Made by a program: the position numbers and the translations under genes. Below are positions 8,901 to 44,293 of a stretch of 64,000 bases of DNA, one piece after another; the first letter of the stretch is position 1, and the number at the start of each line of letters is the position of its first letter. The DNA comes from a virus, in IMG/VR virus record IMGVR_UViG_3300043464_002284, positions 1 to 64,000 of that record; one strand, given 5' to 3'. Below the pieces are notes generated by a model, which was not told the origin of the DNA, did no database searches, and saw only the letters and a list, made by a program, of their open reading frames with translations.

Positions 8901-9320
8901 TATACAAACATACCGAATGCTAATAGTAGAGCTTTGTTTTTAAGTAATTTAACTTCAGCTTCAAAAAATTACTATTATAGAGTTATATTAACCGTTAATA
9001 AAGTACGATTAGCCAGCGAACCTGCGCAACTAAAATTTTTACCATCTATACGAGCGTTTCCTATTAGCTCCCTTGTTAGTTATACAAAAATTGGAACCAC
9101 AGAATATGCTAATATTGATCTATCAATTAATGCAAGCTCATCAGCTGGTAATCTATCATATCAATGGAAACAATCAAAAGATGGAGGAAAAACATATACT
9201 AATATAGCAACAAATACCAGCTCTATAAAAGTTAACAATATAATTAAAAACTTTTATCCTAATTATAAATATCAAGTATTAATCACTGATTCCATATCCA
9301 CAATTACGGTTTATCAATAA
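5997..9320 (+). CDS. Ig-domain fibre protein with an embedded GATase1-like domain
   Basis: 1107 residues. It begins at the C strand of an Ig-like domain (INYKWQVSTDRGTTFKDL), so its first fold lacks the A and B strands. Two more Ig domains follow (about 63-266). A central region (about 270-745) has a WGDPH motif like that of von Willebrand D-type domains and then a Rossmann-like stretch (PDILIISCG, STDVIVLQS, FVQQGGGLLTAEP) resembling the class I glutamine-amidotransferase-like/ThuA fold. No catalytic Cys-His pair could be assigned, so enzymatic activity is not claimed. Four Ig-like repeats follow (about 750-1107); each carries a W in a YxWQ-type C strand. The last one ends after its F strand at TITVYQ. 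Probable elongated tail-fibre shaft. Confidence 0.7.
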   Translation: MINYKWQVSTDRGTTFKDLTGAPSNPSLSLTNIDASQHSYRYRVIATSGSASVTSLSAELIVFPTVNITQHPYDQTIDTDTSNTANFSIIADISTGANTAYQWEVANRASPQTFIPISGATNTSLVINNINDDNNGDQYRIKIVSFFNNRLPITVYSNMATLNVNINPINIILQPINAHISIGSEQVEVFKVITDSNSLLSYQWQESADGYNFKNISSIDNNILYTTDINDFESKNLFKYRVVISSATSSTTSNSATLYTSVELPYFNELNKNTYLWGDPHLKLASSKGSLASLDDNKNIEPIVYFYMQYKAGDSYKAIYKNRFQTPTSSSGPAAVDDVWVMKNNEEKLLSSTIFEAPSTPVPSTALSLGNCTVAGVTGWNYINGRCISMSTPIDAKNLTNINYSKIIKNSIKWLCKNKTNPDILIISCGSSNNDNQIKNTLSSITNKTINIVNGANLTTLPSTDVIVLQSDSKMRSTIDISIKMENSIKNFVQQGGGLLTAEPIVRKIASGKFKTLSDVLPVVAVSIQTRNSPTRYVKNINDETINAGVESDFIFVSNRESYETRIRTAKPGSIIFYHSEQCVKTSFRNINVGNMLDIIYGISTWRNNPYRNVYTKWTNSVQYPGTIRIGGALYWILKSLIENKKNPSNLKYAVWKGLTGSQKDGFGLVMKPFGITRQMLTDAVTAADSSSQILNITEEISMNDPFWKNLSKLLRGLKPDDKYYNSNILYFVTNPGNRSTTPNVAVSMDGSARSSINSPVTYRWQYSISNNAFQNLSDGNKYSGTSTNTLTIKTPALADNNTLFRLSAESKDATTKYSKTCSLTVVPSIIVSSYPIEQIANNKKAIFSIQATSNNGILKYQWQKSNKKNGIYTNIPQATANTLELNISSYVDDQTYYRVVLRDNGSSITTNGVKLTVLSTISILSQPLSVSTDTTSAVFDVQATATDPLSANPVINYQWQKSANNKTYTNIPNANSRALFLSNLTSASKNYYYRVILTVNKVRLASEPAQLKFLPSIRAFPISSLVSYTKIGTTEYANIDLSINASSSAGNLSYQWKQSKDGGKTYTNIATNTSSIKVNNIIKNFYPNYKYQVLITDSISTITVYQ

Positions 9321-11976: not shown

Positions 11977-13176
11977 ATGGCCAATTTAAGAATTAGTCAA
12001 CTAGATCAGGCTCCAATAGTTTCTGGAACCTATGTTTTTCCTGCTAGTAGCACTGATTCGACCTATAAGATTAGTTTTGATCAGTTATCTTCATGGATAT
12101 CTAGTAAAGAAGTTAAAAATAGTATTGGAAATTATAATGTAAATTCTTTTGATACTAAAACTATTGTTACCTTTAATAATAGTCAGCCTGTAGTTTTTAC
12201 TATTCCTAATGAAACTATTCAATATCTGCCCATTGGAACAACTATAGAATTGATACGATTAGGAACGGGAATTGTTAACATTACGGGCGGCTCTAATATT
12301 ACTGTTAACTCTAGTGTGGGATGGACACTAAGAGGAGTTTATAGTAAGGCTACTGTTAGTAAAATTAATGGTAATACTTGGATTGTGAGTGGAGACTTGG
12401 CTTTGAGTCCGACACCTACACCAACTACAACGCCAACAAGAACTCCAACACCAACTACCACTCCCACAAGTAGTCCAACGCCAACCACAACCCCCACAAA
12501 TACTCCAACAACAACAGCCACAGCCACTGTTACTCCAACAAAGTCCCCAACACCAACAGTAACTCCTACCGCCACAGTTACTCCGTCTCCATCTATGTTT
12601 GGAGCACCAAGCTCTCCACAAAATCTGTCTGCTTATGGAGGTAATCAAGAAATCGTCTTATCTTGGGATGCTCCAGCTAGTAATGGCCGTTTAGATATTA
12701 GTCAATATATAATAGAATACCAACCAGAACCTACTCCTTCGACTACTCCCGGTTTAAGTCCGACTCCTACGACTACGACTACACTTAGTCCAACACCCAC
12801 AGTTACCACATCAAGAACACCGAGCGCAACGCCTCCAGCAAATCAAAATCCCGCTTTTACCAACACAATATTATATCCACAAGGTTCGTGGAGTGGTTCT
12901 GGAGAATCTAACGATCCACTTATTCCGAGTCATCGTTTTGGAAACAATACCGCTTCTAGGACTAGTCTAACCGTTGGAAGAAGTGGAATATTACGAATTA
13001 CTGGAACCGTTTTGTATTCTGACTGGTTCTATATTTTTAAAGGTTCAACTGACATTATAATGGACTCTTCTCATAACTCACTTAATGTTTCTGTAAATGT
13101 TGCAGTTGGAGACGTAATCGGTTTTGTAGCAGATAGTGTGTCTTACGATACTAATATTCGTGTTTGGATAGAATAA
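11977..13176 (+). CDS. Fibre protein with N-terminal anchor domain, T/P linkers and half an FN3 domain
   Basis: 399 residues. The N-terminal about 145 residues ([31 protein letters not shown]) form a domain paralogous to the N-terminus of the gene at 24947; in phage fibres such N-termini often attach to the tail or baseplate. A T/P linker (about 146-206) follows, then the first strands of an FN3 domain ending at YIIEYQ (about 208-250), a second T/P run (about 251-288), and a terminal beta-rich domain (290-399; [19 protein letters not shown]). The remaining FN3 strands are at the start of the next gene, so the T/P run plus terminal domain appear inserted into the FN3 C-C' loop. Confidence 0.7.
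12409..12594 (+). repeat. T/P-linker array
   Basis: Thr-Pro-Thr coding repeat between the N-terminal anchor domain and the FN3 half-domain. Confidence 0.75.
12730..12838 (+). repeat. T/P array interrupting an FN3 fold
   Basis: Thr/Pro/Ser-rich coding repeat placed directly after the FN3 C strand (YIIEYQ), where the fold should continue to C'. Confidence 0.75.
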
Positions 13177-13192
13177 TTATGAAATAAATTGA

Positions 13193-13207
13193 GGTGTATA
13201 TAAAAAT
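13193..13207 (+). promoter_or_regulatory. Candidate phage promoter, GGTGTAT motif
   Basis: GGTGTATATAAAAAT in the 49-base gap, 33 bases before the ATG at 13226. Function inferred from recurrence at other gene starts. Confidence 0.45.
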
Positions 13208-13225
13208 ATATAGATCGGAATTAAA

Positions 13226-16200
13226 ATGACAACAATTAATACTAATAGTCCCAACAGAAGTTATACAATAACTGGCCTAAATAACGACGTAACATACAAA
13301 GTTAGAGTCGCGGCAGTAAACTCTATCGGAGCCGGTCCATTTACCGAGTATGTATTTGCTACTCCATCCCTATTTGCTGTTGATAATGATTATTATAATG
13401 TTGAACTATTATTAAATATGGATCAGACAAGTAATAGTGATAACTATTTTGGAAACTCTTCATTAATTTTAGGTACTCCTGGACTAGACCAAAACGACGA
13501 TCAGTATTCAGTACAAACTAAACTACTATTACATGGCGATGGAATAGCCATAGTAGATTCATCTCTTAATCCTAAATCTATAAGTAGAGTTAATAACCCA
13601 TATACTGTATCAGATAGTCGATTTGGTACAGGATCCATAAGATTTACTGGAAACAATTATTTATCAATGGGGTCTTCTAACGATTTTAATGTTGGTACCG
13701 GTGACTTTACTGTTGAACTATTTATTAAATTCAAATCCTTCAACACTCATAATCCTATTTGTAATAGTACTAATGATGTAAACGGTGCAGATAGTAGTAA
13801 GTGGTATATTAATTATGCTCCTGGAACCGGACTATATATCGGACAACATAGTTCATCAAACTCTGCTGTAGCTGCGTGGTCTGCTAGCATAGACACTTGG
13901 TATCATTTGGCTATCACAAGAACTTCCGGAACCATAAAAATATTTATAGATGGAGTAGAACAAAACGTAAATAATTCTACAGTTTTAAACAATATTAGTT
14001 TCAATCAGAGCGGATTTTTGATTGGTAGAGTAACATCATTGAGTGGTCTTGATGCTCAAATAGATGAATTTAGATTTACCAAGGGGATTGCTCGAACCAT
14101 AACTGTTCCAACGGTCGCTTATCCCAACCCAACTAGTCCATTCAAAGACTTGTCTAGTAATAGTAAAAATGTTATTGTTATTGGACAGCCTTTAGTTTCA
14201 TCATATAACGATACTCCATCAGCAGCTCCCACAAATATAGTTGCTTCTCAACAATCGGGTGGACCGCTCAGATTAGATTGGGATTTTGCTTTTCCGTTAC
14301 TTGTTGATTATGTAGTTCAATATAGTGATGATGGTGGAATAAATTGGACTACTGTTAATGATGGAGTGTCTACTAATAATAATGTTACTATTAATCTAGC
14401 TGATGGTTTTTATATTTTTAGAATAGCAGCAACCAATAGTCTTGGACAAGGACCATGGTCTGATACTGTAGACGTAACATTGCCTATTCCAACAGCTGTT
14501 GAGTATTTAGTTGTGGCGGGCGGTGGCGGTGGAGGTAATGATATGGGCGGCGGTGGTGGCTCTGGTGGATTAATCACAAATGTTTCTGGAGCAACATCAG
14601 GAGGAGGTTCAACAGCAGAACCTGTACTATATTTACAAAATACTAGCACATTTAATATTGTTGTCGGTGCTGGTGGATCTGGGGCTGCTTCTGGTAGTGG
14701 TGGAGCAGGAACCAATGGAGGTAATAGTACTATTGTAGTAGAAGGAAATAGTCTTGTTACAGCAATCGGTGGCGGCTACGGAGCCAGTCAACATAATGGT
14801 AACTCATGGAACGCAAGCGATGGAGGTAGTGGTGGAGGAGGATCGGGTGGTCGTCAAAGCAGTAGTAGCTATGGTGGTTTGCCAGGAAACGGTACAACAA
14901 AGCAAGGATTTAATGGCGCTGGTAGTGGACCAACGTGGTATCCTGGTGGTGGTGGTGGAGCCGGAGGTGCAGGTATTGGCAACGGAAGTGTAAGAGGTCA
15001 CGGCGGTCCCGGAGTGCTAAGTAGCATATTAGGAACTCTTTATTATTGGGCTGGTGGTGGTGGAGGTTCAGGATTTAGCACTACCGGTGGAGACGGTGGC
15101 ATTGGAGGAGGTGGTGGTGGCGCTGTAGGAACCACAACTGGTGGAGCTGGTATAAATAATGGAGCTTCTGGAGGTGGAGGGGGTACCCAAAACCAAACTA
15201 ACACTCCTGGAGGAAATGGTGGAAATAATACTGGTGGTGGTGGCGGTGGTGGCTCTCATTTTAACTCTAATAACTATGGAGGGTCTGGCGGTTCTGGAGC
15301 TGTTATTTTAAGATCATTAACATCAGCAACTTCTACTACCGGTAGTCCAACAGTATCAACAAATGGATCATATAATATTTATATGTTTACTGGAACAGGA
15401 TCAATAACTTTCCCGTCAACGCCAAAAGCTCCACCTCCTCCAAGAAACATAATGAATATTCAAAATAGTCAAGGAGATCTAATATTATCATGGGATGCTG
15501 TAGCATCTTCATATAATGTTACAGATTATGTTGTTGAGTATAGAAGCGCTAGTGGTAGTAGTTGGACAACAGTAAGTGACGGAGTATCATCTAGTACAGG
15601 AGCTACTATTAGTGGATTAGCTGATGGCGACTATATTTTTAGAGTGGCTGCTGTCAATAGCGTAGGACAAGGAGCATATAGAGCCAAATTTGTTACATTA
15701 CCCATACCCATTTCCACTATTGAATATTTAGTAGTGGCTGGTGGTGGTGGTGGTGGACATCATTATGATGGTGGTGGCGGCGGAGGAGCTGGAGGTATGT
15801 TATCTGGCACCATGAATAAATCGGCGGGAGATATTGTAAATATTGTTGTTGGAGCCGGTGGCGCCGTTGGTACAAATGGACAAAATTCTATATTTGATAC
15901 TATTACGGCTATTGGTGGTGGTACTGGAGGAAATAATAATGATTCTAATGGTTCAGATGGCGGTAGCGGAGGAGGACAAGGAAGAGATGGGTGCGGAACT
16001 GCCGGTAATGGAACATCAGGACAAGGTAATAGAGGAGGTAATACAGGATGCGGCGGTTGTCAATCGGGTGGCGGTGGCGGAGGAGCAGGTGAAGTTGGTT
16101 ATGATGGAGGATATGATTGTGGTGGGAGTTTTCCAAACGGTAATCAAAGTAGAGGAGGTAATGGTTTACAGTCATCTATAACTGGCGCAGCAACCTATTA

Positions 16201-16507
16201 TGCTGGTGGAGGAGGAGCAAGCTTTGCTGCGAGCGGCTATACTCCTGGAGGATTAGGTGGAGGAGGAAACGGGAATAATGATATTATTGTCCAGACCAAT
16301 CACGGTCAAGCTAATACTGGGGGTGGAGGTGGAGGAGGAAGAAATAGTGGATCTGGTAATGGTGGTAGCGGAATAGTAATTATTGCCTACCAAGGCTCCC
16401 AACTATTCAACATACCACAAGGTTTAACCTATAGCCTTGACACAACATCTAGACCAGGATATCAGATATATAGCTTTACTGGCGGAAGCGGAAACGTAAT
16501 CTTATAA
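13226..16507 (+). CDS. Adhesin with FN3, LamG and two glycine-rich modules
   Basis: 1093 residues. It starts inside an FN3 domain (TTINT, then SYTITGLNNDVTYKVRVAAV; residues 1-47), completing the half at the end of the previous gene. A short stretch LLLNMDQTSNSDN (about 57-75) looks like an orphan LamG first strand. Then come a full LamG domain (about 92-315), an FN3 domain (330-420), a glycine-rich module opening VEYLVVAGGGGGG (about 424-728), another FN3 domain (732-825) and a second glycine-rich module (830-1093). Polyglycine-rich modules recall adhesins such as T-even gp38, whose loops bind receptors; homology is not claimed. LamG domains usually bind glycans. Likely a receptor-binding fibre component. 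Confidence 0.72.
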   Translation: MTTINTNSPNRSYTITGLNNDVTYKVRVAAVNSIGAGPFTEYVFATPSLFAVDNDYYNVELLLNMDQTSNSDNYFGNSSLILGTPGLDQNDDQYSVQTKLLLHGDGIAIVDSSLNPKSISRVNNPYTVSDSRFGTGSIRFTGNNYLSMGSSNDFNVGTGDFTVELFIKFKSFNTHNPICNSTNDVNGADSSKWYINYAPGTGLYIGQHSSSNSAVAAWSASIDTWYHLAITRTSGTIKIFIDGVEQNVNNSTVLNNISFNQSGFLIGRVTSLSGLDAQIDEFRFTKGIARTITVPTVAYPNPTSPFKDLSSNSKNVIVIGQPLVSSYNDTPSAAPTNIVASQQSGGPLRLDWDFAFPLLVDYVVQYSDDGGINWTTVNDGVSTNNNVTINLADGFYIFRIAATNSLGQGPWSDTVDVTLPIPTAVEYLVVAGGGGGGNDMGGGGGSGGLITNVSGATSGGGSTAEPVLYLQNTSTFNIVVGAGGSGAASGSGGAGTNGGNSTIVVEGNSLVTAIGGGYGASQHNGNSWNASDGGSGGGGSGGRQSSSSYGGLPGNGTTKQGFNGAGSGPTWYPGGGGGAGGAGIGNGSVRGHGGPGVLSSILGTLYYWAGGGGGSGFSTTGGDGGIGGGGGGAVGTTTGGAGINNGASGGGGGTQNQTNTPGGNGGNNTGGGGGGGSHFNSNNYGGSGGSGAVILRSLTSATSTTGSPTVSTNGSYNIYMFTGTGSITFPSTPKAPPPPRNIMNIQNSQGDLILSWDAVASSYNVTDYVVEYRSASGSSWTTVSDGVSSSTGATISGLADGDYIFRVAAVNSVGQGAYRAKFVTLPIPISTIEYLVVAGGGGGGHHYDGGGGGGAGGMLSGTMNKSAGDIVNIVVGAGGAVGTNGQNSIFDTITAIGGGTGGNNNDSNGSDGGSGGGQGRDGCGTAGNGTSGQGNRGGNTGCGGCQSGGGGGGAGEVGYDGGYDCGGSFPNGNQSRGGNGLQSSITGAATYYAGGGGASFAASGYTPGGLGGGGNGNNDIIVQTNHGQANTGGGGGGGRNSGSGNGGSGIVIIAYQGSQLFNIPQGLTYSLDTTSRPGYQIYSFTGGSGNVIL

Positions 16508-16518
16508 AGGAGAAAATA

Positions 16519-16899
16519 ATGGCTCATTTTGCTGAATTAGATTCTAATAATGTAGTAACTCAAGTAGTAGTAGTTAATAATAATGAACTATTAGATAATG
16601 GAGTTGAGAACGAAAATAAAGGTGTAGAGTTTTTGAACTCTTTGTTTGGCCACAATAGATGGAAACAAACATCATATAGTGGTAAAATTAGGAAAAATTA
16701 TGCTGGTATAGGGTATAGTTATAATGAGACCTTGGACGCTTTTATTTCACCACAGCCTTTTGCTTCATGGACTTTGGACGAAAATACCTGTCAATGGAAA
16801 GCCCCAGTAGATTATCCTAATGATGATAAATTTTATACTTGGAATGAAGAGTCAAAGTCATGGGTTGTTATTGAAGTTCCACAACAGCCACAACAATAA
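16519..16899 (+). CDS. Small conserved tail-fibre-associated protein
   Basis: 126 residues, with a clear ribosome site (AAAGGAG) before the ATG. The sequence reads MAHFAELDSNNVV, then VVNNNELLDNGVE, RKNYAGIGYSYNE and PQPFASWTLDE. I recognise this as a small protein commonly found beside tail-fibre genes in marine phages; its exact role is unknown. It is soluble, acidic, and without signal peptide or membrane segment. It sits between two large adhesin genes with 11- and 13-base gaps, so it is probably co-translated with them and may be a fibre accessory or small virion protein. Confidence 0.7.
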   Translation: MAHFAELDSNNVVTQVVVVNNNELLDNGVENENKGVEFLNSLFGHNRWKQTSYSGKIRKNYAGIGYSYNETLDAFISPQPFASWTLDENTCQWKAPVDYPNDDKFYTWNEESKSWVVIEVPQQPQQ

Positions 16900-16912
16900 A
16901 AGGAAATATTAA

Positions 16913-19768
16913 ATGTCTTCTTTGTTAACTAATCTAAAAGTAAATAGTGATGGATACTTATATATTCCTTATAGTGAAGATTTTAATTTTGGATCTGGGG
17001 ATTTTACTATAGAGTTTTGGGTAAAATTTAATAGCTGGTCTGATGCTAAATCGGTATTGACAAAAGGATGGCCAGCATCTGGTTCAGACTCTTTTTTGAT
17101 CTATACTCAAGACGGATCAAAAGTAACATTTTATGCTTCTAGCAATGGTAGCGGTTGGCAAGTATCATCAGGTCAGAATATCATTAACAATGTCTCTTTA
17201 AACAAATGGTATCATATTGCGGTCACACGTTCTGGTTCCACATTTAGAACATTCTCTAATGGGGTTCAAACAGCATCATGGAGTAATGGAGATGCTATAT
17301 TTAATAATGTTAGTCATGGTATCGCTATTGGTAATAGTGAGACCGGAAGCCATCCGGTTGACTGTAATATAGATGGACTAAGAATTACTAAAGGAATTTG
17401 TAGGTACACTTCTAATTTTAGTCTTCCTTTTAATGATGCTAGTTTAGTTACCGAAGGAGCCTTTAAAGACCTTTCAAGATCCCCTAAAAGAGTAGTCAAT
17501 AATAATTACGTAAGTACAAATCAAAATATTAAACAATTTGGTGATTCTAGTGCTTACTTTAATGGTAGCTCTTATTTGAGCGTTCCAGGAGATAAAGCAT
17601 GGCAACTTGGTACTGATGACTTTACAGTAGAAGCTTGGATTAATCCTGATACTGTTAGTAATACTAGAAGTATTGTTGGTAATTATGATGGAGCTGATGG
17701 TGGATGGAGATTAATGGTTGGGTCTCCTGTTGGAGGAACTCCTTCTTATGGACCAGAAGTTAGTTTTACAGCAACCAATTATGGAACCGAAGTAGATCCT
17801 ATTATTCCTGGAGTGTTGGAACTCACAAGAGCTAATCAGAATGGTATATATAATAGTGCTTCGGAAGGATCTTATGTCAGATATTCTTCTCCAGCTAATA
17901 CTTCTTGGAACGGTGAAGGATGGTCTAATATATGTAATTACGCAACCAGATCATATTATGATTGGTTAACTGCTTTAAATAATGCTGGTAGAAATCCTAA
18001 TAATATTGTTGGTCTTGAGATGGTGATGAAACATGTTCCCACCAATCGTAATTGGCTGATTAAATTTACTAATTGGCAGGGTGGCGCTCAGGGTGGAGCA
18101 TTTGCTTATACTAGAAAAGAAATTCTTGGTTGTACAGTAGATAATTCAGTGATACAATTTCGTAATGGTAATAGTACAGTAATAGAAAAAAGTGTAACTC
18201 CACCGCTAGCTTCTGGCACATGGTATCACTTAGCTGCAACCAGAAATAACAATAACTTAAAACTATTTTTAGACGGAAATGAAATAGGATCATCGACTGC
18301 TATTAACGACAACATTAGCAGAGTAAACTCTAATGGAATAACAATAGGAGCAAGTCGATCATCGTCTGGTTCTGTAACCAATACTTATCAGGGGTACATA
18401 GACGATCTTAGAATAACCAAAGGAACAGCAAGATATCCAGCTAGCTTCACCAAACCAGCTGCTCCTGCACCCAATTTAGGATTAGGTCCTATTGCTCCGA
18501 GTAGTCCATCTGGTTTAGCAGTTACTGAAAGAGATAATGTCTTCAAAGTGTCGCTAACTCCTCCAACATTCGACGGTCGTTCACCAATCACAGCCTATAA
18601 CTTCCAGTATTCTGAAGACGGATCAACATGGAACAATACTAGTGTAGTATCAGATCCATACTATGACAAGGTGTCATTATTGCTACCAATGACAGGATCA
18701 AATAATAGTACTATTATTGTTGATGATTCTAAACATAATCATAATGTAAGCTTGGTTGGTAATGTTAAAGTAGTATCGTCTGAAAGCTGGTTTGGTAATG
18801 GTAGTGTAGTATTCGATGGAACCAGCGATAATCTTGTAATACAAAATAATTCAGTTTTTGATTTGACCAATCAAGATTGGACGATAGAAGCTTGGATAAA
18901 ACCTACTGGAGATTGGAGTAAATATAATACTATTATTAGTAAGAGAGGGAACGGGGGAGGAGAAGGAACAGATGGAGACTGGCAATTATATCTAAGGCAA
19001 AATAGTGGTGTTTTATGTTTCTATCCAGGAACAATAGGCGGACAAGAGAGCGGATCAGTACCGTTAGTTAACATTTGGAACCATGTTGCTGCTGTGCGTA
19101 ATGGAAAAATAATAACATTATACTTAAATGGAATTTCAGTATTAAGCTTTGTTGCTGATACTCTTTATACTGCTAACCGCAAAATTTATGTGGGTGGTTG
19201 GCCTGCTGGTAATGAATATTTTAATGGAAACATGAATGATGTTAGAGTAACTAAGGGAGTAGCAAGATATACATCCAATTTTGATCCACGAACGCTACCC
19301 CAAGCTCCTGCTAATAGGGTTACAGGATTATCAACTCTAGGTACTCCATACTCTTTCAGAGCAAGATCAGTTAATTCTATCGGATCAAGCGACTATAGTT
19401 CATCAACAACGTCAGTCATATCAACCTTGGGCGCCCCATCTAATCTTAATGTTATTACAGACGACAATAGAGCTTATGTCAACTGGACAGCACCAACAGC
19501 TAATAATTCAGCTATCAAAGATTATGCTGTTCAGTATAAGTCTGATGGTGAAAGTACATGGACAAACTATGCTCATACTCCTAGTATAGATACATCTATT
19601 ATGGTTAGCGGATTACTAGTTGGTACTAGCTATTCTTTCCAGGTAGCAGCAATAAATATAGCTGGCACAGGAAGTTATGTTTCAACAACATCGTCAGTCC
19701 TAACAGCTCTTAGACAAGATAATACATACAATAAGACAAGACTACTACTGCATTTAGATTCAAACTAA
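16913..19768 (+). CDS. Adhesin with three LamG domains, one nested inside an FN3 domain
   Basis: 951 residues. LamG 1 (about 1-185) lacks the usual first strand. LamG 2 (about 196-515) is interrupted at 274-406 by a different beta-rich domain (TNYGTEVD, GIYNSASEG, WLIKFTNWQGG), a module I associate with phage structural proteins. An FN3 domain begins at 531 (PSSPSGLAV), breaks after STWNNTSVVS at 580, contains a complete LamG (581-800), and resumes at RVTGLSTLGTPYSFRARSV (802-838). A normal FN3 follows (840-930). The last residues, TRLLLHLDSN, are the first strand of another LamG whose remainder is the next gene. LamG domains typically bind glycans; host-surface binding is inferred. Confidence 0.72.
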   Translation: MSSLLTNLKVNSDGYLYIPYSEDFNFGSGDFTIEFWVKFNSWSDAKSVLTKGWPASGSDSFLIYTQDGSKVTFYASSNGSGWQVSSGQNIINNVSLNKWYHIAVTRSGSTFRTFSNGVQTASWSNGDAIFNNVSHGIAIGNSETGSHPVDCNIDGLRITKGICRYTSNFSLPFNDASLVTEGAFKDLSRSPKRVVNNNYVSTNQNIKQFGDSSAYFNGSSYLSVPGDKAWQLGTDDFTVEAWINPDTVSNTRSIVGNYDGADGGWRLMVGSPVGGTPSYGPEVSFTATNYGTEVDPIIPGVLELTRANQNGIYNSASEGSYVRYSSPANTSWNGEGWSNICNYATRSYYDWLTALNNAGRNPNNIVGLEMVMKHVPTNRNWLIKFTNWQGGAQGGAFAYTRKEILGCTVDNSVIQFRNGNSTVIEKSVTPPLASGTWYHLAATRNNNNLKLFLDGNEIGSSTAINDNISRVNSNGITIGASRSSSGSVTNTYQGYIDDLRITKGTARYPASFTKPAAPAPNLGLGPIAPSSPSGLAVTERDNVFKVSLTPPTFDGRSPITAYNFQYSEDGSTWNNTSVVSDPYYDKVSLLLPMTGSNNSTIIVDDSKHNHNVSLVGNVKVVSSESWFGNGSVVFDGTSDNLVIQNNSVFDLTNQDWTIEAWIKPTGDWSKYNTIISKRGNGGGEGTDGDWQLYLRQNSGVLCFYPGTIGGQESGSVPLVNIWNHVAAVRNGKIITLYLNGISVLSFVADTLYTANRKIYVGGWPAGNEYFNGNMNDVRVTKGVARYTSNFDPRTLPQAPANRVTGLSTLGTPYSFRARSVNSIGSSDYSSSTTSVISTLGAPSNLNVITDDNRAYVNWTAPTANNSAIKDYAVQYKSDGESTWTNYAHTPSIDTSIMVSGLLVGTSYSFQVAAINIAGTGSYVSTTSSVLTALRQDNTYNKTRLLLHLDSN

Positions 19769-19786
19769 TAGGGTAATAATAAAATG
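19766..19786 (+). other. Stop/ribosome-site/start junction inside a LamG fold
   Basis: Tandem in-frame stops TAA TAG run into an AGGG ribosome-site-like core, followed by an ATG in the same frame. The codons between the stops and the ATG (GGT AAT AAT) still match the loop seen in uninterrupted LamG paralogues. Confidence 0.6.
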
Positions 19787-22700
19787 AGTATAATAGATTC
19801 GTCACCAAAACCTAAAACTGTAACATTAAATAATGGAGCATCAGTTAGCACTCTCAAAAGCCGTTTCGGTGGAGCTTCATTATTATTGAATGGATTAAAT
19901 CAATATGCTAGTATTCCTGAGCATACGGATTTTGGTTTTGGCACAGGCGATTTTACTATAGAGATGTGGGTTTATCCACTAGACAACAACGACTATAGAA
20001 CCTTGATCTCCATTGGAACACACATGGACGGACTATTATGGAGAATGTGTACCGAAGGAAATCAATTATGGTTTAATGGAACTCCTTGGAACTGGGGATC
20101 TAGTAGTGTTCCATTACATACATGGAGTCATTTAGCTTTAGTTAGAAATAGTGGAGCGATTAAAGTTTATATTAACGGAACTGAATCTTTATCAATTTCT
20201 GGCTCTGCTGCCGCTAGTAATCTAGGCTCATCCAGAGCGGTAAATATTGGAGCATATAATCCAGGAAGTGAAACATTTAATGGATATATAGACGAAGTTA
20301 GAATAACTAAAGGAATAGGATCTGCAAAATACAATAGTAATTTTGATGTTAAAACACTATATGCTCCATTCCCATCATCAGGAACTCCTGTAACTCCACC
20401 CAATGCTCCTACCGATCTAGTAGCTGGACCACTAGATCGCACTATTAATATGATATGGAATACTCCAGCAGAGGATAACGGAGGTATTATTACCGATTAT
20501 TCTATTCAGCATTCAACAAATGGTTTTGACTGGATTGATTTTCCTCACTCTCCTAGTGTTGTTACAGCTATTAGTGTAACAGGACTAGATAATGGAACTA
20601 ACTATAGTGTTAGGGTTGGAGCCATTAATTATACCGGCGTACAAAATTATGTATCTCAATCTGATCTTATGCCGTCAGTACCTCCAGTTGATACTAATCC
20701 AGATCCATATTTTTATAGTACCTCGTTATTACTTCATTTTAATGGAGCACATAATAGCACAACCATCACCGATACGTCATATCTTCCAAAAACTGGGACT
20801 GTTCAAGGAGATGCTAAACTCAGTATCGCTAAGAATAAGTTTGGTGGTAGTAGTATTTATTTTGATGGTAGTGGAGACTATTTAACAGTACCAGATCATC
20901 CAGGATTTGATTTTGGTGATGAAGATTTTACAATAGAATATTGGGAATATCGTTTAGGTTCGGGTACTGGGTCTGTTATGTGTAGGGTACGCACAGGACA
21001 GGGTTATAATCCTTGGTTGCTTGGACATAATGAATCTGGCACTCTTAAACTTTATATGAGTGTTGATTATGCTAACTGGGCTGTTAGTAGCTTAAGTATG
21101 GGTTCCATGATCCAGAATGCTTGGACTCATTATGCTGTTGTTAGACAAGGTAGTACTGTTAGAACATACCAAAATGGATCACAAGTTAGTACAGCTAGCT
21201 TTACCGGGACATTACCAATAGGTGGCGGTTCGCTATCAATTGGGCGATATGCTGATAATAGCACTGATTATTTTAATGGTTATCTTGATGATGTTCGCAT
21301 AACTCGTGGAGTTTGTAGATATCCAGATGGAACGACCTTTTCCGTACCAGCACTACCTTATTCCGATGTCGCACCAACAATTACTGCTCCAGAAGCTCCC
21401 TCTAGCATAACCGTTTATGGTGGAGATGCCTCTGCAGAAGTTGTTTTTGTTTCTCCAGCAAGCGATAAGTCCGTATTAGTATCATATGACTTACAATACT
21501 CAGAAGATTTAGCTGAACCATCATGGACACCGGTTTCATCATCTCCTACCAGACTATTATTACATTTTAATAAGGGAGACATTCGAGGCAACGCCAAACT
21601 TAAAGATTATTCATTGTATAATCGTAATGTTCTTTGGAATACTACTAATAATCCTGCTTTTATAGGTGGAGATAACTCATCTAACTATCAAAAGTTTGGA
21701 GATGGATGCTTAGACATACAATATAATCGAACAAACTATACTTCTCCTTATATTGTTAAGGTGGATGAATCGTCTGATCTGAATCCTGGAACTGGTGATT
21801 ATACTCTGGAAATGTTTTTAATGCTAGACGATCCCTATACTTCAACAAGTATAGGCAGACTATTTGGATCATATAATGCTTCTTCTGGTTCTTATTTTGG
21901 TATAAATAAAATGGATTACTATACCGTTAGATTAACTAAGATGGTTAATGGATCAGCAGCTTATTATGTTGATATAGGTAGTTCTATTTTAAGAGGAAAT
22001 ACAGACCAAAATGGTCCAGGAAATTATAGTAAAAAACCCATACATCTAGCATTTTGTCGTCAAAATGGAACTATAAGAATTTATGTTAATGGAAATAAAG
22101 TAGTAGATAGAGCAGATACTAATAATGATAATTTTTCTGCTGGTGGATTAGTAGTTATGGGTGGAGACTCTGGATCTCATTATGCTAATAATTACGTATT
22201 GGGTCGAATGGACGAACTAAGATATACCATCGGAGAAGCACTATATACAGGAGCCAGTATTGATGTATTACCAAGCTCAGAATTTAAAAATGTCAAAGTT
22301 ACAGGAATACCCAATAATAAAAATTATGTATTCCGCATTCGTGGACAAAATAGTGGTGGATATGGAGACTATAGTAGTGAAAGCTCACCAGTAACAGTAG
22401 CTCCTCCTCCAGTACTAACAATAACTTCAGAACCAAAGAATGATAGAGTACTAGCACTCAACGAAAACGCCACGTTCTCTGTGTCTGCAACAATGTCCGA
22501 TAGTTCTGCTCTATCATATCAGTGGCAAAAATATGATACCGACGCCAATGATTGGAATGGAGAGAACGGAAGAAATTGGCAAAATATTAGTGGCGCAACA
22601 GGATCGACCTTAACTATTAATAGTCAAGGATTTAATGCGGTAAACAATTGGACATGGCAAAGTCCTCCAGGAAAAGATGCTGTACGATGCATAATAACTT

Positions 22701-23683
22701 CAGCATATTCAACTGTAGTTACCAAGTCTGTTAGATTAGTAAATATGAGCTTTATTTACTACTCTATGGAAGTACATCCAGATGGGAACAGAAATAACAA
22801 CTCTGAAGTTGTAAATGGTATTAACTATAGAGGATATTATGCTAATGCAAATGAAACATTTAACCTTTATCCATACTCAGGCTGGGGTATGGGTCCACCA
22901 CCAGACGATAGCTGGTACTCCGGTAATGACACTGCCATAAGATTTCAATATTCTCTCAATCCGTCTGAAGGAATATGGACAGACGCAAATTCATCAAGCA
23001 ATATAGGTTTTAGATACAGCGCAGCCTCTAATCTGAATTCTGTTACTTATCTAACACCAACAGTAGATTTGAGTGGAAGAGTGTATTTTCGCACATTAGT
23101 ACAAGATTTATGGCCATATAATACCAGTAATGGATCTTCTTCTTCTACAGAATCATCATACTCTGTTGTCCAAACAAACGGAGAGTATGGTTATTTCTAT
23201 ATTGATTTCACAGCCACAGCCCCCACACTTATGACTAATTTTAGTGCTGATCCGGGAGATAGATTGGTTGCTCTGTCGTGGACTAAGGGACTTAGTGGAG
23301 GTTTACCATCTGGTACAACATACTCTATAGAATATAGTACAGATGAAACTAATTGGGAAACTTTTACTAACACTCTAGCATTTTCTAATAGTAGTATTTA
23401 TGTTACTGGATCAAACGGATTAACTAATGGTACAACATACTACTTTAGAATGAAAGCAGTTAATAGTGTTGGTTCAACAAGTTATACCAGCACAATATCA
23501 GCTACTCCTAATGTTTCAGAGGCTACTGCCCCATCAGCAATCAATAATCTAACAGCGGTTGCTGGAGACGGCAGAGCATATTTAACTTGGGATAGTCCAG
23601 CTAGTGACGGTCAATCATTACCATTATCGTATGCTGTAAGATACTCCAGAGACGGAGGATCTACTTGGACAAATTATCCTTGA
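19784..23683 (+). CDS. Large LamG/FN3/Ig adhesin, starting and ending inside domains
   Basis: 1299 residues. It starts within a LamG domain (SIIDSSPKPKTVTLNNG) whose first strand ends the previous gene. Order: LamG (1-205), FN3 (206-303), LamG (306-525), the first half of an FN3 (535-588, ending WTPVSSSP), a nested LamG (589-834), the second half of that FN3 (835-873; KNVKVTGIPNNKNYVFRIRG), an Ig-like domain (874-985), an unrecognised beta-rich region (985-1145), FN3 (1146-1245) and the first half of a last FN3 (1248-1299, ending GGSTWTNYP). The rest of that FN3 is at the start of the next gene. Probable fibre component with glycan-binding LamG units. Confidence 0.72.
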   Translation: MSIIDSSPKPKTVTLNNGASVSTLKSRFGGASLLLNGLNQYASIPEHTDFGFGTGDFTIEMWVYPLDNNDYRTLISIGTHMDGLLWRMCTEGNQLWFNGTPWNWGSSSVPLHTWSHLALVRNSGAIKVYINGTESLSISGSAAASNLGSSRAVNIGAYNPGSETFNGYIDEVRITKGIGSAKYNSNFDVKTLYAPFPSSGTPVTPPNAPTDLVAGPLDRTINMIWNTPAEDNGGIITDYSIQHSTNGFDWIDFPHSPSVVTAISVTGLDNGTNYSVRVGAINYTGVQNYVSQSDLMPSVPPVDTNPDPYFYSTSLLLHFNGAHNSTTITDTSYLPKTGTVQGDAKLSIAKNKFGGSSIYFDGSGDYLTVPDHPGFDFGDEDFTIEYWEYRLGSGTGSVMCRVRTGQGYNPWLLGHNESGTLKLYMSVDYANWAVSSLSMGSMIQNAWTHYAVVRQGSTVRTYQNGSQVSTASFTGTLPIGGGSLSIGRYADNSTDYFNGYLDDVRITRGVCRYPDGTTFSVPALPYSDVAPTITAPEAPSSITVYGGDASAEVVFVSPASDKSVLVSYDLQYSEDLAEPSWTPVSSSPTRLLLHFNKGDIRGNAKLKDYSLYNRNVLWNTTNNPAFIGGDNSSNYQKFGDGCLDIQYNRTNYTSPYIVKVDESSDLNPGTGDYTLEMFLMLDDPYTSTSIGRLFGSYNASSGSYFGINKMDYYTVRLTKMVNGSAAYYVDIGSSILRGNTDQNGPGNYSKKPIHLAFCRQNGTIRIYVNGNKVVDRADTNNDNFSAGGLVVMGGDSGSHYANNYVLGRMDELRYTIGEALYTGASIDVLPSSEFKNVKVTGIPNNKNYVFRIRGQNSGGYGDYSSESSPVTVAPPPVLTITSEPKNDRVLALNENATFSVSATMSDSSALSYQWQKYDTDANDWNGENGRNWQNISGATGSTLTINSQGFNAVNNWTWQSPPGKDAVRCIITSAYSTVVTKSVRLVNMSFIYYSMEVHPDGNRNNNSEVVNGINYRGYYANANETFNLYPYSGWGMGPPPDDSWYSGNDTAIRFQYSLNPSEGIWTDANSSSNIGFRYSAASNLNSVTYLTPTVDLSGRVYFRTLVQDLWPYNTSNGSSSSTESSYSVVQTNGEYGYFYIDFTATAPTLMTNFSADPGDRLVALSWTKGLSGGLPSGTTYSIEYSTDETNWETFTNTLAFSNSSIYVTGSNGLTNGTTYYFRMKAVNSVGSTSYTSTISATPNVSEATAPSAINNLTAVAGDGRAYLTWDSPASDGQSLPLSYAVRYSRDGGSTWTNYP

Positions 23684-23695
23684 TCTATAACTCTC

Positions 23696-23708
23696 TAATA
23701 GGAAATAA
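23696..23708 (+). promoter_or_regulatory. TAATAGG ribosome-site cassette before an FN3 second half
   Basis: TAATAGGAAATAA lies in the 35-base gap between two halves of an FN3 domain. Very similar strings occur at 19766 (TAATAGGGTAATAA) and 24661 (TAATAGGTAATAA), each at a gene junction. Likely translation re-start sites. Confidence 0.45.
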
Positions 23709-23718
23709 ATAACATAAT

Positions 23719-24663
23719 ATGGCTAAAATTACTCAAATGATTACTGGATTAATCAATGACGAACCAAATCAATCATATTCTTTTCAAGTAGCAGCAGTTA
23801 ATCCCATAGGAACAGGAACCTATTCAACACCAGCTACCGGCATAGTTCCTTATACTGGGGGTTTTATTGATGCTGTTCCCATAGAATATTTAATTGTAGC
23901 TGGTGGTGGTAGTGGAGCAAATACAGGGAGTGGAGGAGGAGCCGGAGGAGTTTTGACCGGTCAAATGAATCTTTTTTCTCCAAACACTTATAATATTGTG
24001 ATAGGAGCAGGTGGTACTATTTTAGATTATGGAGCTGCTCCCGGCACCAACGGAGAAAATACAACAGCTTTTGGATTAACAGCAATTGGTGGTGGTGGCG
24101 GAGTATCTCACGGCGCAGGCAATGGAGTATCTGGAGGTAGCGGTAGTGGAGGCGCCGTAACCGAATCCAACAGCGGTATTCCTCTTAGATTTGGAGGATC
24201 AGGAACTGTTGGTCAAGGAAATAGTGGAGGTAATGGTTTTGTGGCGTGGAGTTGGAGTGGCTGTTCCGGTGGTGGTGGTGGTGCTGGACAAGCAGGTTCG
24301 GATGGCGGCAATAGTCCCGGTAGCGGTAAGGGTGGTAATGGAATACTATGGTATGGAAATTACTATGGTGGTGGAGGTGGAGGTGGAGAAGTTAATGGTA
24401 GCTATGTTGGAGCAGGCGGTTTAGGTGGAGGAGGCAATGCAGTTATTAATAGTACTGGTCAAGATGGGGTAAATAATACTGGCGGTGGTGGCGGTGGAGG
24501 AAGTTATACCGGAGCGTACTATAACGGAGGAGCAGGAGGTTCCGGAGTTGTTATCATTCGCTCTTTAGTTCTTGCCTCATCAACCACGGGCTCTCCAATC
24601 ATAACAACAGACGGATCTTATAACGTATACAAATTTACAGCAACAGGCTCTATCACATTTTAA
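23719..24663 (+). CDS. FN3 half-domain plus glycine-rich adhesin module
   Basis: 314 residues. Residues 1-48 (ITQMITGLINDEPNQ, then SYSFQVAAVNPIGTG) are the E, F and G strands of an FN3 domain whose front half ends the preceding gene. The rest (about 53-314) is a glycine-rich module opening IEYLIVAGGGSG and closing with STTGSP and GSYNVYKFTATGSITF. It is paralogous to the two modules in the gene at 13226, and the closing motif is nearly the same as that of the first of them. The starting ATG at 23719 is far from the AGG ribosome-site core at 23700-23702. Likely a receptor-binding tip. Confidence 0.68.
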   Translation: MAKITQMITGLINDEPNQSYSFQVAAVNPIGTGTYSTPATGIVPYTGGFIDAVPIEYLIVAGGGSGANTGSGGGAGGVLTGQMNLFSPNTYNIVIGAGGTILDYGAAPGTNGENTTAFGLTAIGGGGGVSHGAGNGVSGGSGSGGAVTESNSGIPLRFGGSGTVGQGNSGGNGFVAWSWSGCSGGGGGAGQAGSDGGNSPGSGKGGNGILWYGNYYGGGGGGGEVNGSYVGAGGLGGGGNAVINSTGQDGVNNTGGGGGGGSYTGAYYNGGAGGSGVVIIRSLVLASSTTGSPIITTDGSYNVYKFTATGSITF

Positions 24664-24676
24664 TAGGTAATAAATT

Positions 24677-24946
24677 ATGAAATTAGATAATACAGTAACA
24701 ATCGACTTAGGCTCTGGTGATCCTTTAGTACTAAACGAATTAGATGTTGTTCTTATGGATCATGAATCTAGAAAATTAGTTTTAGCAAAAGTTCATCCAT
24801 TAGCAGGCCCTCTCTCACTATGGAGAGGTTCAGAGTATGACGAGGCTGGGGACTATACTCAAGCTCAAGTTGAAGCTAGAATAAAAGAACTATTAGGAGA
24901 GAATCTAGAAAGACTACCAAGCTTATTCCACAGAGAAATAGTATAA
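24677..24946 (+). CDS. Hypothetical small protein in fibre operon
   Basis: 89 residues, acidic, no membrane segment or signal. It reads as a compact beta-hairpin start (TVTIDLGSGDPLVLNELDVV) followed by a helical C-terminus (QAQVEARIKELLGENLERL). It starts 13 bases after the glycine-rich gene behind a TAATAGG ribosome-site cassette and abuts the next gene with no gap. I do not recognise a family. Position suggests a small tail or fibre accessory protein. Confidence 0.55.
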   Translation: MKLDNTVTIDLGSGDPLVLNELDVVLMDHESRKLVLAKVHPLAGPLSLWRGSEYDEAGDYTQAQVEARIKELLGENLERLPSLFHREIV

Positions 24947-26719
24947 ATGGCTACACAAACTCTTAATCTATTACCATCTGCTCCATCTCAGGTGGATCCT
25001 TTTTATGTATTGCCAGCAAGCGATAGCGGTAAGACATATAAAGTTTCCATATCTTCTTTGTCTGATTGGTTATCGTCTAAAGATATGGTTACCAAAAATT
25101 CTAACTATACTTTATCTTACTCTGATGGTAAAGCTGTTATAAATTATGTTGGTAATGGTGCGTCTAATTTAATCGTACCAAGTCATAATGAGCCAATTTC
25201 AATTGGTACCACCATTAATATAGCAAATAATTCTCTAATGGGCTCTCTCAATATTGTGTCATCTAGTGGTGTTGTTGTTAATAGTGCTTTAGGATCATAT
25301 GTCAAAAATTATGGACTAGCTTCATTAACTAAAGTCGATACTAACTCTTGGATTCTGGGTGGTAATCTATCTGTTTATCAAGACCCATATTTTGAACAAA
25401 CTAAACTTTTATTAAGAATGACAGGAACCGATAACAGTACAACATTCCTAGATAGTAGCTTATCTCCTAAGACCATAACGCCTAACGGCGGAACTAAAAT
25501 TGTAACATCTAATAGCAAATTTAACGACAGTAGTGCTCAATTTTCTAATAGTACTCTATCAATACCAAGCAGTTTGGACTTTAATTTTGGTACGGGAGAT
25601 TTCACAATAGAATGTTGGGTATATTTAAATAATCATGGAGGTAACGGATATAATCACTTTTTCTCCATTGATCAACAAAATACTTTCGCTTTTAAATCAT
25701 ATAATGAATCATATTATTTATACGCTAATAGCACAACAGCAGTATCAACAACCATCTCTCCGATTTTAAACTCTTGGCATCATCTGGCATTAGTTAGATA
25801 TGGTCAAAGATTATTCATATTTGTAAATGGAGAATTAAAAGGGGAATCAATAATACCTCAATCAAATACTTACGGTAGTACCTCTGGAGTTTTGATAGGT
25901 TCTGCTAATGGTACTACTGGAGAATATTTAGACGGATTTTTGAATGATCTTAGAGTAACAAAAGGACAAGCCCGATATACTGTTAATTTTACTCCACCAA
26001 CTGAATATCTTTATAAAAACCAAAATGTCATTACTAATCCAAGTAGCATTCTTGGGTTACAGCTATGGTTAGATGCTAGCGATAGTAGTACCCTATATGA
26101 CGCAGTAGACGGGGGGTCGTTGGTGTCAGCAGATAGTTCCGTATTAAAATGGACAGATAAAAGTACCAACAACTATACTGCAACACAAACAAATTCTTCA
26201 TATGCTCCAATAAGAAAAACTTCAGTCATTAATAATAAAGATGCTTTATTGTTTGATGGAACTAATGATTATATAGATATTAATAGTGTATCAATGTCTC
26301 AAAGAATTACTGCTTTTGTTGTATGGAGACCGAATAATGACTCTTCTTATGCTTTTGATTCTACAACAAGCACAGATGGGACTTCCAATAGAGTAACCTT
26401 TTTAAATGTTCAAGGACCATATGTTTATGCCGGAGCAGATTTAAGGAATACAGATAATCAACTCACTAATAATTGGACTGTTTGTTCTATGGTATTTGAT
26501 AAAACATCTTCTAAGTCTTATATTAATTCAGCATTATCCGCAAGCGGAAACTCAGGTTCAAACAATATGACCTCCCTTAGGATTGGTTCTAGATACTCTT
26601 TGGAGAATTATTTAAATGGGTATATTGGAGAAATACTATTATACGATTCTGCAATAACAGACAGCGAAAGAATAGCTATTGAGGCTGGATTAAAGCTCAA
26701 ATGGGGAATTAGCTCATAA
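24947..26719 (+). CDS. Anchor-domain fibre protein with two concanavalin-like domains
   Basis: 590 residues. The N-terminal domain (1-146; TLNLLPSAPS, FYVLPASDSGKTYKVSISSL, TNSWILGGNL) is a paralogue of the N-terminus of the gene at 11977 and probably attaches the protein to the same class of tail site. A LamG domain follows (about 147-365; FNFGTGDFTIECWVYL, DLRVTKGQARY), then a second concanavalin A/LamG-like domain (366-590; LQLWLDASDSSTLYD, LLFDGTNDYIDI) with a C-terminal ITDSERIAIEAGLKLKWG helix typical of such bacterial and phage domains. Unlike the genes before it, its start and end match domain edges. Likely a short self-contained fibre or decoration protein. Confidence 0.72.
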   Translation: MATQTLNLLPSAPSQVDPFYVLPASDSGKTYKVSISSLSDWLSSKDMVTKNSNYTLSYSDGKAVINYVGNGASNLIVPSHNEPISIGTTINIANNSLMGSLNIVSSSGVVVNSALGSYVKNYGLASLTKVDTNSWILGGNLSVYQDPYFEQTKLLLRMTGTDNSTTFLDSSLSPKTITPNGGTKIVTSNSKFNDSSAQFSNSTLSIPSSLDFNFGTGDFTIECWVYLNNHGGNGYNHFFSIDQQNTFAFKSYNESYYLYANSTTAVSTTISPILNSWHHLALVRYGQRLFIFVNGELKGESIIPQSNTYGSTSGVLIGSANGTTGEYLDGFLNDLRVTKGQARYTVNFTPPTEYLYKNQNVITNPSSILGLQLWLDASDSSTLYDAVDGGSLVSADSSVLKWTDKSTNNYTATQTNSSYAPIRKTSVINNKDALLFDGTNDYIDINSVSMSQRITAFVVWRPNNDSSYAFDSTTSTDGTSNRVTFLNVQGPYVYAGADLRNTDNQLTNNWTVCSMVFDKTSSKSYINSALSASGNSGSNNMTSLRIGSRYSLENYLNGYIGEILLYDSAITDSERIAIEAGLKLKWGISS

Positions 26720-26721
26720 TT

Positions 26722-26736
26722 GGTGTATTAATAGAT
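26722..26736 (+). promoter_or_regulatory. Candidate phage promoter, GGTGTAT motif
   Basis: GGTGTATTAATAGAT directly after the fibre block, 40 bases before the ATG at 26762. Strong match to the motif family; it would start the small-protein/nucleotide-metabolism operon. Confidence 0.5.
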
Positions 26737-26761
26737 ATCCTCTAATATTAGGAGCTTTATA

Positions 26762-27160
26762 ATGCCTGATAATGAAAAGCTAAAAGCCATCGCTATTAAA
26801 ATTCTAGAAAAGTCAAGAGTACCCAAAGAAGATAACTATGGATTTGCTGTAGTCACCATTCTGATGATCATAAGCATAGTTCTAACATGTGTTAGAATTC
26901 TACAAGAATGCAACAAGAACAAACTATCTGATCAATCTACTGCAGAGGATAAATGCTCAATGTATGGTGAACAACTTAAAGAGTTCAGCTCAAGAAAAGG
27001 CTGGTTCACTAAAATGAGAATCAAAAAGATTTTGAGAAGAGAGATGAGTAGGGAAGATTATGAAAAATATTCTCTAACCATACTGAACGCTTTGTTAGAA
27101 ACAGGAGAAATTCTCACGGATGATGAGGTAGTAACTTTAGTGGAGGCAGCAAATGTTTAA
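26762..27160 (+). CDS. Hypothetical single-span membrane protein
   Basis: 132 residues with a strong ribosome site (TAGGAG) before the ATG. One clear transmembrane helix (FAVVTILMIISIVLTCV, about 28-46) follows a charged, probably cytoplasmic N-terminus. The C-terminal part is highly charged and helical (MRIKKILRREMSREDYEKY). No family recognised. It overlaps the next small membrane gene by 8 bases, so the two are probably coupled. A role in membrane remodelling or lysis is possible but unsupported. Confidence 0.6.
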   Translation: MPDNEKLKAIAIKILEKSRVPKEDNYGFAVVTILMIISIVLTCVRILQECNKNKLSDQSTAEDKCSMYGEQLKEFSSRKGWFTKMRIKKILRREMSREDYEKYSLTILNALLETGEILTDDEVVTLVEAANV

Positions 27161-27398
27161 TATAATGGTGTGGTGTGTTTATGGCTTGTTTGTTGGATCA
27201 ATAGCAAAGAGCATAGTACCGGGAGAAGAAAATTTTGGTTTTTGGAAAACTGTAGCTCTAGGGGTTGCAGGATCGTACTGCGGAGGTATAATAACCTATC
27301 TCTTGGGCATGACGCCCTTACAACCCGCAGGGATAATCATGGGAGTTGCAGGAGCAATTGCTTCCTTGGTATTTTACAAAAAGCTATTAGAAAAATAA
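27153..27398 (+). CDS. GlsB/YeaQ/YmgE-type small membrane protein
   Basis: 81 residues, translated from an ATG with a near-ideal ribosome site (GGAGG six bases upstream). Three hydrophobic segments and the motif GLFVGSIAKSIVPGEENFGF, then glycine-rich GVAGSYCGGIITYLLG, match the transglycosylase-associated (GlsB/YeaQ/YmgE) membrane family. In bacteria these are small stress-associated inner-membrane proteins of unclear biochemistry. Phage copies are found but not characterised. A competing frame from 27170 is a shadow. Confidence 0.65.
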   Translation: MFNIMVWCVYGLFVGSIAKSIVPGEENFGFWKTVALGVAGSYCGGIITYLLGMTPLQPAGIIMGVAGAIASLVFYKKLLEK

Positions 27399-27411
27399 TC
27401 GACTCTACAAA

Positions 27412-27879
27412 ATGAGACCAATCTGGACGGACTACTTCTTGGGATTAGCGAAAGTTATTTCTCAAAGAAGTCATGACATACATACGCAACATGGATGCGT
27501 AATAACTGATCAAAATAATAGGATTCTAGGGGTTGGATATAATGGATATCCACGAGGATTAGACGATAGCAAGCTACCCAAAAATCGTCCGGATAAATAT
27601 CCGTGGATGGTTCACTCTGAAAGAAACGCACTATCCAATTGTGTTGTACGACCAGACAATGGAATAGCATATGTTACAGGTCAGTGCTGCAATGATTGTA
27701 TTATGGCTTTGTGGCAAGAAGGAGTTCAGACAGTTTATATGATTGATGACCACGGGACTCATTTATTTGATGATAACGCTAAAAAAATATTTGACACTTT
27801 TGTAGAAATGAGTGGAATAAAAATTTCTAGAGTAACACCAGATCTCTCTTGGCTCAAGAGCTTGTGTGGTGTACTATGA
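27412..27879 (+). CDS. dCMP deaminase-type zinc cytidine deaminase
   Basis: 155 residues. Deaminates dCMP to dUMP, feeding dTMP synthesis together with the downstream RNR and dUTPase. The zinc site of the cytidine/deoxycytidylate deaminase family is visible: HSE at residues 68-70 (His ligand, catalytic Glu) and CNDC at 93-96 (two Cys ligands, in place of the usual PCxxC). VGYNGYPRG (41-49) is the typical substrate-loop motif of dCMP deaminases. The stop overlaps the next ATG (ATGA). No thymidylate synthase gene is present in this window. Family assignment is firm; specificity for dCMP rather than other cytidines is inferred from the phage setting. Confidence 0.85.
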   Translation: MRPIWTDYFLGLAKVISQRSHDIHTQHGCVITDQNNRILGVGYNGYPRGLDDSKLPKNRPDKYPWMVHSERNALSNCVVRPDNGIAYVTGQCCNDCIMALWQEGVQTVYMIDDHGTHLFDDNAKKIFDTFVEMSGIKISRVTPDLSWLKSLCGVL

Positions 27880-28019
27880 ATACATCAGTATTTTGTTTTT
27901 TATTATCGTTATCCGTATCAATTTATTCTTTTTACAAGGGCGATCAGCCAAATATGGTTTTAGGCAATTTTTTGATCACTCTCGCCCTAGGTTTCACAGC
28001 ACTATTAAGTAGGAGATAA
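27876..28019 (+). CDS. Small two-helix membrane protein
   Basis: 47 residues, starting in a 4-base ATGA overlap with the dCMP deaminase stop and ending one base before the RNR start. Two hydrophobic segments (VFCFLLSLSVSIYSF and FLITLALGFTALL) are joined by a short polar turn (YKGDQPNM), giving a hairpin membrane protein. Its coding region also provides the RNR ribosome site (AGGAG). No family recognised. It fits the space exactly, which supports it being real. Confidence 0.55.
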   Translation: MNTSVFCFLLSLSVSIYSFYKGDQPNMVLGNFLITLALGFTALLSRR

Positions 28020-28020
28020 T

Positions 28021-43372: not shown

Positions 43373-43378
43373 TCTTCT
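43364..43378 (+). promoter_or_regulatory. Candidate phage promoter, GGTGTAT motif
   Basis: GGTGTATAATCTTCT, overlapping the last codons of the dnaE N-part, 66 bases before the ATG at 43430. It also contains a TATAAT box. Would separately express the second half of the polymerase with its exonuclease. Confidence 0.4.
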
Positions 43379-43429
43379 GTGTAGAAACAGAAACCTTTAT
43401 ATCAAACCTTCTTTAAAAGGAGAATTATT

Positions 43430-44291: not shown

Positions 44292-44293
44292 TA

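Follow-up and report, generated by a model that had tools for sequence, protein, structure and literature searches.

Introduction

In chaperone-usher pili, subunits are joined by donor-strand complementation, in which a strand at the end of one subunit completes the beta-sandwich of the next. Fission of genes for large phage proteins is known from the split RNA polymerase subunits of jumbo phages. An Fn3 domain engineered with a cut in its CD loop is described in PMC11666773, citing Dutta 2005, as reassembling from two peptides, and the same account gives the split domain as less stable, with melting near 45 C versus about 78 C, and with binding retained (PMC11666773).

We found no report of serial split-domain adhesin genes in a phage. 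In the phage locus described here, adhesin folds are divided between separate cistrons, the division is conserved, and the parts are under purifying selection, as read from the DNA and its translations.

Results

The phage and its adhesin block

The window, i.e. the whole stretch of DNA that was analysed, is the first 64 kb of a virus record totalling 237,915 bp. It belongs to a tailed phage and includes ribonucleotide reductase, dUTPase-like, RecA-like, helicase and primase-like genes, named by eye from their translations. No near-identical DNA or close DNA-level relative of the window was found among GenBank phages. The adhesin block (genes 236 to 26719) encodes RCC1 repeats, Ig-like, LamG (PF13385), Fn3 and glycine-rich domains, and Pro/Thr repeats, as assigned by Pfam, and in PHROG it matches baseplate wedge and other virion proteins. 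Gene 23719 gave no match in a tblastn search against phages. Elsewhere in the window, the minus strand at 54824-62599 encodes a 2591-aa protein without a PHROG match.

DNA polymerase III alpha is also split (41507-45913). The PHP and polymerase core lie at 41507-43372, followed by an exonuclease gene at 43602-44291 and by the finger domain and remainder at 44294-45913; the finger domain, which stands after the exonuclease gene, lacks the first 20 profile positions. Thus, making one protein as several chains is not alien to this phage.

The LamG junction between genes 16913 and 19784

The features of the junction are given below, together with their equivalents in two related phage contigs, G008 and L006.

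16913-19768, + strand: upstream adhesin gene, 951 aa, with three LamG domains, an Fn3 with a LamG nested inside and a further Fn3, terminating in strand 1 of the next LamG (ORF, Pfam, own profiles)
19724-19765, + strand: severed LamG first strand, NTYNKTRLLLHLDSN region, last 14 codons (G008 comparison; strand E11-15 in the read-through model)
19766-19783, + strand: TAA TAG stops, AGGG (19770-19773) and spacer to the ATG (equivalent to TAATAGGGCCATAATAAA in G008 and TAAGGATAAAATA in L006)
19784-23683, + strand: downstream adhesin gene, 1299 aa, with a LamG from profile position 19 at its start and an Fn3 first half at its end (ORF, own profiles)
19787-20350, + strand: acceptor part of the split LamG, profile positions 19-210 (167 bits, own profile; AF2 mean pLDDT 91.6 alone)

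The upstream ORF ends in ...NKTRLLLHLDSN, and gene 19784 reads SIIDSSPKPK after its ATG, in the same frame. The stops TAA (19766-19768) and TAG (19769-19771) are followed by the spacer GGTAATAATAAA (19772-19783) and the ATG at 19784. The severed piece is the first beta-strand of the LamG jelly roll, and the cut sits in a loop. The first-pass annotation had described one LamG fold cut in the loop between its first strand and the rest by a stop, a ribosome site and a start, and this was borne out by the sequence and by the LamG profile. Against our own profile, the downstream part scored 173.5 bits alone and 183.1 bits when joined to the upstream end (positions 2-210 of 211), and Laminin_G_3 (PF13385) was found above its curated cut-off in the downstream part (19892-20308, 83.8 bits). 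The distance from the last sense codon to the ATG, previously given as nine bases, is 18 bases (TAATAGGGTAATAATAAA). From after LLL to the Asp there are, as had been counted, 16 codons, two of them stops, while the 13 residues said to be the rule in uncut paralogues proved to be the upper end of a range that begins at 9 (HGDGIAIVD, gene 13226). When the halves are joined without the spacer, the span is 10 in the window and G008 and 9 in L006.

Sequences resembling the 18-base stretch precede two other genes of the block, TAATAGGTAATAAATT before 24677 and CTAATAGGAAATAAATAACATAAT before 23719; hence, the stretch has the look of a routine module that this phage places between genes to provide a ribosome site. 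Set against the ribosome sites of many other genes, the AGGG is weak. A second contig (IMGVR 3300044616_001642) has the same junction letter for letter, so that it is not a private assembly error.

The same cut in relatives

G008 (IMGVR 3300042197_003184, 140 kb) was found by a degenerate DNA pattern for the severed strand. It is cut at the same residue (...NKTRLLLHLDSN, two stops, MSIIDSS), at 67-80% aa identity, with a nearly identical spacer (TAATAGGGCCATAATAAA), tandem TAA TAG and the halves in frame; its downstream gene shares about 69% identity with gene 19784 over 1,298 residues. The distant phage contig L006 (IMGVR 3300023179_000072, 81 kb) carries the same LamG at 58% aa identity, with the same cut. 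There, NKTKLLLHMDA is followed by TAA, GGATAAAATA, ATG and NIIDSS, which leaves a 10-nt gap and puts the halves in different frames; a common frame, proposed from the window, therefore extends to G008 and not to L006. Presence of the same cut in the window, G008 and L006 indicates that the split predates the divergence of the three lineages, and a recent tiny insertion, as first suggested, does not agree with its fixation at these levels of identity. It had also been proposed that a fixed, unrelated sequence in all relatives would speak against a split LamG. The junction is indeed fixed, though what is fixed is the split fold itself and not an unrelated sequence.

Further relatives were sought both with proteins and with DNA patterns; G008, L006, L090 and copies of the window were all that emerged, and the cut is known from three lineages only. 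G008 and L006 are split at the same residue, and no joined form of the junction was present in any contig. In the cyanophage S-SKS1, the best annotated relative, the LamGs are intact and there is no split. Among 4255 adjacent ORF pairs at 193 loci, other border-spanning LamG matches look like frameshifts. L006, a fragment, lacks the two core genes tested. One of its LamG units (12818-13450) carries a long GC-rich antisense ORF (12860-13234) in an AT-rich gene and is apparently a recent import from another phage. Between L090 and the window (21008-30213), the adhesin gene 24947 has dS 0.07 and the nearby ribonucleotide reductase dS 1.77, indicating that the adhesin block was recently exchanged between phages.

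In the last 14 upstream codons, all 14 amino acids are identical between the window and G008, with 7 of 9.7 synonymous sites changed (pS 0.72, near saturation) and 0 of 32.3 non-synonymous sites (pN 0). Neighbouring 18-codon bins of the upstream gene range from 56 to 100% aa identity, and strand 1 of intact LamGs in the same genes is equally conserved (13-17 of 18). Against L006, 10 of 14 residues of the tail are identical, compared with 36 of 102 in the preceding aligned flank (P 0.006). By these comparisons, the severed strand behaves as though it were still part of a LamG. The first 18 residues past the cut are likewise identical to those of G008 (18/18), but the DNA is conserved there too (pS 0.24), and part of this identity may thus reflect an initiation signal or a recombination tract. 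The first about 37 bases of gene 19784 (19784-19820) are identical in G008, silent sites elsewhere being saturated. Both whole genes are under purifying selection (dN/dS 0.16-0.17, window versus G008).

Other borders that split folds

Further split folds were located using profiles built here from intact domains, and the Ig-like cases were aligned by eye.

5751-5837, + strand: first part of an Ig-like domain at the gene 2229 end, with a PTPTRT tail behind it (aligned by eye to the Ig-like repeats of gene 5997)
6000-6206, + strand: matching Ig-like remainder at the start of gene 5997 (by eye)
9072-9317, + strand: Ig-like domain without its last strand at the end of gene 5997 (by eye; moderate)
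9322-9381, + strand: candidate for the missing last strand at the start of gene 9322 (by eye; moderate)
12610-12729, + strand: Fn3 first half in gene 11977, with an anchor-type N-terminal domain in front (own profile)
13229-13366, + strand: matching Fn3 second half at the start of gene 13226 (own profile; kept in G008 and L006)
14135-14206, + strand: segment of gene 13226 matching LamG positions 18-41, probably the first part of a further split LamG (2.2 bits alone; weak)
16946-17425, + strand: LamG positions 55-210 at the start of gene 16913 (133 bits)
23534-23677, + strand: Fn3 first half at the end of gene 19784 (profile 2-48 of 93, 33 bits)
23737-23829, + strand: matching Fn3 second half at the start of gene 23719 (profile 59-86, 16 bits; kept in L090 and G008)

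As in split-domain complementation, both parts of one fold lie in separate chains and the cut is in a loop. The Fn3 halves of 11977/13226 scored 36 and 39 bits apart and 70 bits joined, with the cut in the CD loop. Those of 19784/23719 scored 71 bits joined versus 43 and 27 apart, and are cut in the loop next after the CD loop. The LamG part of gene 13226 is a weak case, its joining to the start of 16913 giving 145.5 versus 140.3 bits; two Fn3, two glycine-rich domains and gene 16519 lie between the parts. The borders 2229/5997 and 5997/9322 probably cut Ig-like domains. At these other borders, the halves are separated by 1-57 nt or by whole genes.

The Fn3 cuts are repeated in L006 before its B and D genes, and in its protein A the Fn3 first half is barely detectable (4.4 bits). 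G008 keeps the cuts with more inserted between the halves, there being four genes within the 11977/13226 Fn3. One of the four (L241:8821-9678, minus strand) is tyrosine-recombinase-like (PF00589, 24.5 bits, just below cut-off) and is a possible clue to how modules enter the borders. At its end, the G008 homologue of 19784 has two Fn3 first halves together with a LamG-like domain; one Fn3 second half then opens each of the two genes that follow. Judged by orthology, the 23719 homologue would supply the partner of the outer half and the new gene that of the inner, in the manner of nested brackets. Fn3 first and second halves number 4 and 4 in the window and 5 and 5 in G008, in nested order, by a post hoc count that includes weak half-domain matches (9.5 bits).

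Whole LamG domains are accommodated in the same Fn3 loop of a single chain (in 16913, 19784 and their homologues), which indicates that Fn3 halves can fold across a break or a long insertion. In G008 (L241, g10554 residues 420-747), a complete LamG is inserted in a LamG loop, with none in the window homologue; in-chain nesting is thus ongoing.

Strand 1 in LamG domains

The LL of strand 1 is more than 90% conserved in 71 LamGs, and the strand is present in 303 of 357. Another 27 of the 357 lack strand 1 and start near the position where the acceptor part starts; almost all of them immediately follow another LamG. In single-chain AF2 models, strand 1 was formed in the read-through chain (mean pLDDT 90.8), and the downstream part without it was equally confident (91.6), with the neighbouring strand at SII lost. 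The TM score to the solved LamG-like structure 5hon_A fell from 0.69 with strand 1 to 0.61 without. Given this confidence either way and the strand-less LamGs, the acceptor may not need the donor, and a conserved fission in which the strand is dispensable is the leading alternative at the LamG junction.

Discussion

The comparisons show that the borders are conserved gene fissions, best read as old, under selection and placed in loops. The reading that we prefer, with a probability of about 0.6, is that fold complementation brings their products back together, without covalent bonds, as a single long adhesin. Retention of both pieces by selection suggests that neighbouring proteins clip together, each supplying what the other's fold lacks. 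Translation of the two proteins is separate, by way of a stop, a ribosome site and a new ATG, and the upstream C-terminal strand (NKTRLLLHLD) would dock into the incomplete LamG that heads the downstream protein, restoring the jelly roll. Fn3-half joints would link 11977 to 13226 and 19784 to 23719, and a weaker LamG joint 13226 to 16913. The Fn3 pairs make the stronger case for complementation than the LamG junction. Physical complementation of the parts, and their assembly into one virion appendage, are inferred from these patterns.

Conserved fission without complementation, in which strand 1 is dispensable for folding of the downstream LamG and the tail remains unpaired as a relic or serves some other purpose, e.g. 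in translation of the next gene, is in keeping with the strand-less LamGs (27/357) and with the AF2 model of the downstream part alone. However, the tail is held at the amino acid level while its codons are saturated with silent changes, unlike a leftover or a DNA-level signal, and this alternative would leave unexplained the Fn3 halves, which are retained in matching pairs and are not plausible as independently folding units. We regard this alternative as unlikely, if deserving of serious consideration.

Programmed readthrough, frameshift or bypass giving a fused protein in part of translations, also raised in the first-pass annotation, would suit the in-frame halves and 18-nt spacer of the window and G008, but both have tandem TAA TAG, and it is excluded as a shared mechanism by L006, where the halves are out of frame across one TAA and a 10-nt gap. 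No RNA structure was detected at the junction (z = -0.10), including a stimulatory hairpin of the T4 gene 60 type, and the other borders, with their gaps of various lengths or whole genes, do not fit such a mechanism. We consider it very improbable.

Even less credit can be given to a recent accident or decay of one gene, or to an assembly error. The contigs are metagenomic and the adhesin genes mosaic; in L085 (796-1437), homologues of 16519 and 24677 stand side by side and 16913-24663 is missing as a block. Nevertheless, the second contig is identical, purifying selection acts on both sides of the cut, and the two divergent phages G008 and L006 refute an accident unless the split arose at that one residue on three occasions. 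A phase-variable switch by slippage, for which the TAATA-rich spacer might be cited, can be dismissed almost entirely, as the junction has no tandem repeat or repeat tract, the L006 spacer differs in length and sequence, the joined form is in no contig, and a length change keeping the stop of L006 cannot join its halves.

Returning to fold complementation, only 11977 in the chain 11977-13226-16913-19784-23719 has the N-terminal anchor-type domain, which is common to 24947 and to fibre-like genes of relatives. The later pieces would therefore need such joints to reach the virion. More tentatively, and with somewhat less than even odds, the appendage may be one virtual giant polypeptide of about 4,000 aa (11977, 13226, 16913, 19784 and 23719), its separate chains stitched in fixed order by split beta-sandwich domains and its borders acting as nested brackets, between whose halves domains or genes could be inserted without unlinking the chain. 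If complementation is true, these would be natural, evolving split-protein connectors that set subunit order along a long fibre non-covalently, the phage could grow or swap host-binding modules at the borders, and several natural split pairs (LamG, Fn3, Ig-like) would be available for protein engineering. Borders of viral adhesin genes need not coincide with domain borders, which matters for annotation and for single-gene structure prediction.

Laminin_G_3 or LamG-like virion proteins of cyanophages and others (PF13385, PHROG 13163) share the fold and the setting, but in them the domain lies within one gene, unlike the split found here. The RNA polymerase subunits of jumbo phages are similar in that one ancestral protein is made as several assembling chains; the adhesin borders differ in being beta-sandwich loops that double as insertion points for domains or genes. 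As in chaperone-usher pili, the end strand of one subunit would complete the beta-sandwich of the next, whereas the phage subunits are large and mutually different and the halves are remnants of one ancestral domain; no chaperone or usher was matched among the phage genes scanned here. Like the engineered split Fn3, the phage Fn3 is cut in an inter-strand loop with its halves in separate chains. The engineered case is designed and concerns a single domain, while the phage case is natural and serial, extends to LamG and Ig-like domains, and would complement by inference. The known parallels of this locus are the engineered split Fn3 and donor-strand complementation.
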